Part shown: positions 27,335-29,046 of the stretch, piece after piece
Layout: each line of letters begins with the position of its first letter
Numbering within the stretch: position 1 is the stretch's first letter
Source: [Synechococcus] sp. NIES-970
Lineage (GTDB): Bacteria; Cyanobacteriota; Cyanobacteriia; Cyanobacteriales; MRBY01
DNA: 64,000 nt
Reading direction: 5' to 3'
NCBI GenBank assembly: GCA_002356215.1
Contig: AP017959.1
Location: 806,001-870,000, forward strand
Notes under the pieces: generated by a model
The model's database searches: none
Told to the model about the DNA's origin: nothing
The model's input: only the letters and a program-made list of their open reading frames with translations
Made by a program: the position numbers and the translations under genes

Positions 27335-28726
27335 CTAGATCGGCACAGCCAGGCTATGGCCTAGGGGTAAGAAAATGGCAAAAACCTCTTCTCCTGATGC
27401 CCGTCGCCGAATTGCAAGTTTCCCCCCCAACTGTTGGAACAGATTTTTGGTGACATTGGGGTTGAGGCTCAAGCTTCCAGTTTCTGGCTGAAAGACCAGC
27501 AGTTGACCGATCGCCTTTTCGAGACATTTTTGACCAAGGCCATGGGATTGGACTTCGAGTTTGAGTTGGTCACCAGCCGTACTCACCTGAATTTGTACCT
27601 CCGCCCCAGTCGGTAACCGCCGGGTAAAGGTTTCAATGAGCCCCGAAAGAACCTGGTCTAACATGGCTGGATCGCTCACTACCTGGGGGAGGTAGGGGGG
27701 CAAGGTCACTTCAAGGTTAACATTGCGCCGTTGGGCCTGTTTTTGCCAGCGGGGCGTCCCTTCCTGGAACAGTTGCTCTAGGGAAATGGGCATCAATTGC
27801 ACCGAATGTCGTTGTTTTTGGGAAGGAGTTTCTAATTCTGCGGCCCGGAAAATGAGTTCCATGCGACGGATCTGTTCGTTACATTCCTGCTCAATGGTTT
27901 CGATGCGCTTCACGATATCTTTGGTGAGCTGGGTTTTCTTTTTCAGCAGCAGTTTCGTCATGGTGCGGATCGTTGTGAGGGGGGTGCGAATCTCGTGGGT
28001 GAGGGCCTGGAGCAGTTCGAGCTCTGGTTGTACCGCCTGTACTGTCTGCTCTGGGATATTGAGGGATTCTTCGGGGAGGATAATGTCAGTTTGGGGTAGG
28101 GTCGCCACCAGCGATCGCACAAAGAGCTGACTAAAACGCACCACGAGGCGGTAGTCAGGGATCTGGCCACCCAAGGGTTGCCACCGTCGGGCAAGGGCTT
28201 GGTATTGGAAGGGTTGGGTCAAAGCCAGTCGCCACTGCAAAATTTCCCAAATGGCGGCGATCGCCTCCGGCTCGAAAGAAAATAATAATCCCTGGGGGGA
28301 GGCGGCCATGGCGAAGTTAAAGTCTTCGGTCAAAATCACGCAAAACTGTTCCTGGGCCAGGGGATCATTGGGCAGAAGGGGAAATTCTACCATCTTGTTT
28401 TCTAGTGATCGCCCCTGGGGACAGCCCCCACCGGGTAACTGGAGTTGATCCCGGGCAATGTGTCGGAGATTTTTGGGGGTGAGGACGCAATGGTGGTAGC
28501 GGGTGGCAATTTGAGGGGCCGCAAACAGGGGGCTAGGACTCGATAAAATAATTCCATGGTGGCTGGCGGCGGTGGTGGCTTGCAGCAATTCTGTCAGGGC
28601 AACGATCGCCGCCCCCCATTGATCCCCCTGGTGGCGATCGCCTGCCGGGGAAGACAATGGCTGAAATTTCTGGAGAATGCCCACCACCGTTTGTTGAATA
28701 TCCAGTTGTTCGAAATCTAAATTCAC
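27335..28726 (-). CDS. Histidine-kinase-like protein with degenerate ATPase domain
   Basis: About 463 residues. The N-terminal ~230 residues form a sensor-like region I cannot classify. A dimerisation/phosphoacceptor helix has a normal H-box, LTHEIRTPLT (His about 244). The ATPase part looks eroded: where a VLxNLLxNA N-box is expected there is VLSGLIETFTRR without the key Asn, and the DxGxG motif reads SHGLG. The final block LGGKLAIRRRASGEEVFAIFLPL keeps the family shape. It may therefore sense or scaffold without normal autophosphorylation. A GTG start at 28726 has GGAG 8 nt upstream; a GTG at 28735 is an alternative. No partner regulator is adjacent. Confidence 0.8.
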   Translation of the reverse strand: MNLDFEQLDIQQTVVGILQKFQPLSSPAGDRHQGDQWGAAIVALTELLQATTAASHHGIILSSPSPLFAAPQIATRYHHCVLTPKNLRHIARDQLQLPGGGCPQGRSLENKMVEFPLLPNDPLAQEQFCVILTEDFNFAMAASPQGLLFSFEPEAIAAIWEILQWRLALTQPFQYQALARRWQPLGGQIPDYRLVVRFSQLFVRSLVATLPQTDIILPEESLNIPEQTVQAVQPELELLQALTHEIRTPLTTIRTMTKLLLKKKTQLTKDIVKRIETIEQECNEQIRRMELIFRAAELETPSQKQRHSVQLMPISLEQLFQEGTPRWQKQAQRRNVNLEVTLPPYLPQVVSDPAMLDQVLSGLIETFTRRLPTGAEVQIQVSTAGDQLKLEVQSHGLGQKCLEKAIGQLLVFQPETGSLSLNPNVTKNLFQQLGGKLAIRRRASGEEVFAIFLPLGHSLAVPI

Positions 28727-28891
28727 CGCAGTCACTCCGACTTCGACCCTAAGTTACCTTGATACTAAGAGGATTCTTCACAAAATAGAAGTCGTACAAC
28801 CGAACAGAACACAGTGGGGTTTTACCAGAAAGTCCAGGTCATCAGAGCCTTTATCTCTTGCCCGGATATGGCGAAATCTTCAAATTTTTCC

Positions 28892-28920
28892 GTAACAAAA
28901 ACGGTATGTTCTGCTACACT
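28892..28920 (+). promoter_or_regulatory. Candidate promoter of an intergenic small RNA
   Basis: GTAACA at 28892-28897, a 17-nt spacer, and extended -10 TGC-TACACT with the hexamer at 28915-28920. The same TGC-plus-hexamer form precedes tRNA-Arg at 36 kb. Transcription would begin near 28927. Confidence 0.4.
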
Positions 28921-28926
28921 ATGGAT

Positions 28927-29046
28927 TGTGTAAAGAAATATTTCGGGCTCCGTGCTGGGAACGCGTGGTTTGAAATTTTACGTTTTTTTGATACAGAAAC
29001 AACAACAAGCTTGAGTCATGCCAGCGATCGCCTCGCTGGTTTTTTT
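28927..29046 (+). ncRNA. Candidate small RNA or ycf51 leader attenuator
   Basis: About 120 nt bounded by a plausible promoter and a strong intrinsic terminator. The segment carries no open frame of note and no match that I recognise to Yfr1, Yfr2, 6S, tmRNA or SRP RNA. Alternatively it could be an attenuating leader of ycf51, whose ATG is about 106 bp beyond the terminator. Confidence 0.4.
29021..29046 (+). terminator. Orphan intrinsic terminator
   Basis: Perfect 7-bp stem CCAGCGA / TCGCTGG, 5-nt loop and seven T. The left arm and loop contain a HIP1-like octamer. No plus-strand gene ends upstream of it within 1.7 kb. Confidence 0.85.

Follow-up and report, generated by a model that had tools for sequence, protein, structure and literature searches.

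A probable NsrR1 small RNA gene upstream of ycf51 in the unicellular cyanobacterium NIES-970

The window analysed here, a stretch of 64,000 nucleotides from the 3.12 Mb genome of [Synechococcus] sp. NIES-970 (closest named relative compared, Picosynechococcus sp. PCC 7117), was found to contain a gene-free interval of ~120 nt bracketed by a promoter and a terminator, the latter ending ~107 bases before the start codon of ycf51 and lying on the same strand. The divergent gene upstream (27335-28735, minus strand) encodes a sensor histidine kinase, of which curated models fit the kinase part only. The original prediction had described this interval and its borders, and the promoter (GTAACA, a 17-nt spacer and TGC-TACACT, together at 28892-28920), the strong terminator (stem and T-run) and the absence of a gene between them were all confirmed in the sequence. 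The features, numbered within the window, are as follows.

28892..28897, plus strand: -35-like GTAACA, weakly conserved, homologues frequently having TTTACA, or TAACA with an A-run after it
28904..28917, plus strand: predicted NtcA-type site GTATGTTCTGCTAC (GTR-N8-TAC), overlapping the -10 box, the position expected of a repressor
28912..28920, plus strand: extended -10 element TGC-TACACT; consensus among homologues, TGnTACAAT
28927..29046, plus strand: probable nsrR1 homologue, predicted RNA of ~120 nt (covariance models R1 and R2; alignment A7)
28940..28976, plus strand: central hairpin, its loop CUGGGAA (28955-28961) being the conserved (U)UGGGAA(C) element
28997..29016, plus strand: conserved segment AAACAACAACAAGCUUGAGU, unpaired and corresponding to AAGACAACG, with which Nostoc NsrR1 binds nblA; probable mRNA-binding segment
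29020..29046, plus strand: Rho-independent terminator, stem GCCAGCGA/TCGCUGGU followed by 7 U

The start at 28927 (+/-2) was deduced from the promoter and from the start in Nostoc. In the terminator, 29020-29027 pairs with 29033-29040 and the T-run occupies 29040-29046. Two further pairings put forward in the original prediction were rejected because one partner of each precedes the expected transcription start and so lies outside the RNA, namely GCCCGGATAT (28860-28869) of the pair GCCCGGATAT/ATATTTCGGGC, which is also not conserved in the genus alignment, and TACAC (28915-28919) of a TACAC/GTGTA hairpin.

Pattern and fold scores were not in themselves distinctive. Pattern scanning leads one to expect 6.1 terminator-like sites per 4-kb region, so that the terminator score is not beyond chance; a strict sigma-70 pattern scan of the 4-kb region did not report the promoter at 28892-28920, and the fold of the 120-123 nt RNA was only mildly better than that of shuffled sequences (z -1.4 to -1.6). 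The element is considered to exceed chance because it is conserved, as seen in identity within the genus, model matches at one per genome and covariation of its helices. The block 28896-29046 has 76-90% identity in the five other genomes of the genus, where it always precedes ycf51, and the intergenic flanks are less conserved. Within the unpaired segment at 28997-29016, the sequence from AACAACAACAAG onward does not vary among the six genomes. Inspection of the alignments revealed neither a common start codon nor a common reading frame that would indicate a conserved small ORF.

A covariance search across related cyanobacteria, as proposed in the original prediction, was carried out. Covariance model R1 grew out of two weak matches in other families and gave full-length matches in 130 of the 245 genomes of the order, with a single match in all but two. 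Model R2, built from 42 diverse members, matched 96 of 386 genomes in a phylum-wide sample, most of them belonging to the same order and others to some families of the same class; two weak matches in small genomes outside the class (E ~0.001-0.003) were left out of these counts. In one family of another order (f38) the element was present in 36 of 42 genomes. As the many-genome searches used strict filters, absences are not firm. Neither the element nor 19 homologous loci reached the gathering score of any Rfam 15 family, the only matches in the scan being tRNAs. Judged by these model matches, the covariance family is far more widespread than the heterocyst-forming cyanobacteria, extending to many families of the order and to another order.

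The structure is supported by covariation. On an alignment made without structure, and hence not fitted to it, 90% of cells pair, and two-sided changes were found for 6 of the 6 central-helix pairs and 8 of the 9 terminator-stem pairs (14/15 in total). The covariation score was 0.43, compared with 0.22 for shuffled and 0.07-0.14 for slid structures; kinship among the sequences inflates such counts, but the slid control retains this kinship and still drops to a third or less. Hairpin arms also fit their own partners better than those of other species (mean score 4.5 against 3.6 after swapping, the maximum of 300 swaps being 3.9). The hairpin loop is UUGGGAA in the family and CUGGGAA in NIES-970, and an unpaired segment with ACRACAAC sits between the hairpin and the terminator. 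The GGGAA of this loop, in NIES-970 and its homologues, is among the best-conserved parts of the RNA, exceeding the published mRNA-binding segment. Many members outside the genus of NIES-970 (among them L129, L140, L153 and L156) carry GGAUUUCCUC or a similar stretch between the hairpin and ACRACAAC; it is a possible complement of ribosome-binding sites and is missing in the genus of NIES-970.

The promoter is conserved as well as the hairpin, which is what the original prediction had implied for a genuine element. Among 85 distinct homologues, GTR-N8-TAC is preserved at 93% (G), 92% (T), 90% (R) and 96-100% (TAC), with the TAC falling inside TGnTACAAT. The motif by itself is unremarkable (8 occurrences in the 64-kb stretch, where 4.6 are expected), and it is its conservation at this position that matters. 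NtcA sites which overlap the -10 serve as repressor sites (PMC6166021). This arrangement has been published for nsrR1 of Nostoc PCC 7120 and all of its homologues; for the Nostoc gene, NtcA binding has been shown, as has repression under nitrogen stress (PMC6166021).

NsrR1 of Nostoc PCC 7120 has its start at 2050703f and its terminator end at 2050814f, giving about 110 nt (PMC6166021), and is a nitrogen-controlled repressor of mRNAs with nblA and all1871 as experimentally supported targets (PMC6166021, PMC7281752). Its C63 and C66 pair with G-18 and G-21 of nblA, for which compensatory mutants have been published. In the Nostocaceae-like members G111 and G511, AAGACAACGCG in the RNA complements CGCGUUGUCUU in their own nblA leader, and G occurs at exactly -18 and -21 in these leaders, matching the published bases. 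The pairing C residues of Nostocaceae-like members lie at 62/65 or 63/66, counted from the inferred start. The predicted RNA-nblA duplexes reach -25.6 (G511), -23.1 (G111) and -23.9 (G523) kcal/mol, values that no shuffle out of 200 equalled, in a test that scores pairing energy without accessibility. Nostocaceae-like genomes carry C at the published U51, and therefore PCC 7120 may differ by one base or the numbering may differ by one. Family f33 is presumed to be Nostocaceae, on grounds that include this match in nblA pairing.

A single covariance family unites these Nostocaceae-like copies with the NIES-970 element, and it was taken to be NsrR1 because the former show the published nblA pairing; the identification draws on genomes that are probably Nostocaceae, on published numbering and on target pairing. 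The NIES-970 element itself shows family homology, GTR-N8-TAC over the -10, and a length of ~110-120 nt with a Rho-independent terminator. From its sequence, it is very probably a free-standing gene for a trans-acting sRNA, the NsrR1 homologue of a unicellular Picosynechococcus-like strain. The suggestion of an undescribed sRNA was therefore borne out as regards an sRNA, whose predicted start and end agree with those given there, but only half so as regards novelty, the family being already known as NsrR1 of Nostoc (PMC6166021, PMC7281752). NsrR1 was published, from BLASTN-based searches, as confined to heterocystous cyanobacteria and two close unicellular relatives, and as absent elsewhere (PMC6166021, PMC7281752). 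Elements of this kind were known before, but this member and the breadth of distribution are new relative to the NsrR1 papers and a review; later work may have widened the distribution.

As an alternative, the original prediction had proposed an attenuator controlling ycf51. Such an element, or a leader, would act in cis, transcription from 28927 stopping at 29046 or reading through to ycf51 depending on a signal. The terminator is indeed close to ycf51 on the same strand, and this order is kept in 6/6 genomes of the genus. However, among 93 homologous loci ycf51 lies downstream in only six, which are the six genomes of this genus, and in 57 rqcH (NFACT, Pfam PF05833) lies upstream on the same strand, with the RNA typically beginning ~70 bases after it and many copies facing convergent genes. 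Moreover, the predicted folds of the RNA offer no alternative partner for the terminator stem. The attenuator idea fails because the RNA precedes ycf51 only in this genus and usually follows rqcH elsewhere, and we regard it as very unlikely. The RNA thus typically adjoins rqcH, and its placement ahead of ycf51 is a feature of this genus alone, where ycf51 is adjacent but gives no sign, by position, of being a target. The genes downstream of the rqcH-linked copies vary and are often convergent. At six loci (L129, L131, L180, L193, L208 and L211) a porin-like gene (OprB/SomA type, by eye from the translation) is convergent just downstream of nsrR1, an arrangement which is frequent in other families. 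In family f20 (L117, L119-L124, L126, L137) the sRNA immediately precedes a co-oriented gene for a CorA magnesium transporter, in the manner of a leader.

The frequent linkage with rqcH, found also in 8 of the 10 loci checked in another order, could point to an RNA that binds protein or is linked to the ribosome, working chiefly in connection with this neighbour and pairing with mRNA secondarily; the GGGAA loop, so highly conserved, is distinct from the published nblA-binding part. Nevertheless, the genus of NIES-970 retains the RNA although rqcH is located elsewhere (in NIES-970 at C1:189661-191001, ~645 kb away), and Nostoc NsrR1 has its experimentally supported mRNA targets (PMC6166021, PMC7281752), making such a role very unlikely. 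Identity with PsrR1/SyR1, a light-regulated sRNA of comparable size (131 nt) that is widely conserved among cyanobacteria (PMC6091082, PMC2662882), is scarcely conceivable, since separate loci exist in one genome: the published probe GTTCTCCTAGATATGCC is absent from the NIES-970 RNA (and was not found in the NIES-970 genome at up to 2 mismatches), and of the five genomes of genus g8, four carry a perfect match to the probe 17-mer and the fifth a match with 2 mismatches, at a locus separate from that of the NsrR1-family RNA. Also set aside were Sye_sRNA1, by description ~200 nt long and adjoining psbD or cobB, and Yfr2, by description sharing only a GGA-containing loop.

With the element read as NsrR1, the question of its targets arises. 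The predicted pairing between the RNA and nblA is strong for three of the Nostocaceae-like genomes, less so for others, and near chance or inconsistent in the genus of NIES-970, where the counterpart of the nblA segment is AACAACAACAAGCUUGAG, invariant across six genomes. The nblA leaders of this genus showed no consistent pairing with their own RNA, shuffle p values ranging from 0.04 to 0.9 at differing positions. A scan of the NIES-970 genome with CTTGTTGTTGTT, allowing one mismatch, gave 43 matches compared with 46 for the reversed control, and therefore no enrichment; among 24 match loci inspected, one is found shortly before an open frame of 495 codons (L260). As no convincing nblA pairing was found in this genus, the targets have probably changed, and the likeliest reading of these sequences is that the switch has been conserved while its targets have changed, nblA probably being no longer a target or no longer the only one.

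For the expression, NtcA repression and mRNA targets of the NIES-970 RNA, we infer the following by analogy with Nostoc. The RNA would be made when nitrogen is plentiful, and its unpaired segment would pair with mRNA leaders near the ribosome-binding site, blocking translation. Under nitrogen stress, NtcA would bind over the -10 and lower transcription of the RNA, thereby relieving the repressed mRNAs. A broader proposal, plausible but about which we are slightly more doubtful than confident, is that NsrR1 has long served as a regulator in Cyanobacteriia, mostly inherited beside rqcH, and has a GGGAA loop with a conserved partner and an mRNA-binding segment that has been altered from lineage to lineage. 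A single NtcA-switched RNA would then act on nblA and all1871 in Nostoc and on different mRNAs in Picosynechococcus. The present identification would move NsrR1 from a heterocystous trait to a widespread, probably nitrogen-responsive sRNA, and would bring into its distribution a genus whose laboratory strains grow fast and are open to genetic manipulation. Target exchange during evolution, by an sRNA that stays under one conserved transcription factor, becomes a testable idea, and attention is drawn to the conserved loop as a possible functional part.

Compared with NsrR1 of Nostoc PCC 7120, the NIES-970 RNA is alike in its NtcA-type GTR-N8-TAC over the -10, its length of about 110-120 nt, its terminator, and its conserved hairpin with an unpaired A/C-rich segment. 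It differs in its unicellular, non-heterocystous host, in preceding ycf51, and in its predicted target-binding segment (AACAACAACAAGCUUGAG rather than AAGACAACGCG), with no clear nblA pairing. PsrR1/SyR1 is likewise a conserved cyanobacterial sRNA of ~130 nt, but differs in sequence and locus and is controlled by light. NsiR4 of Synechocystis is similarly a small RNA under NtcA in nitrogen regulation; it differs, by description, in being induced under nitrogen stress and in regulating IF7 (PMC6316151, PMC6166021).
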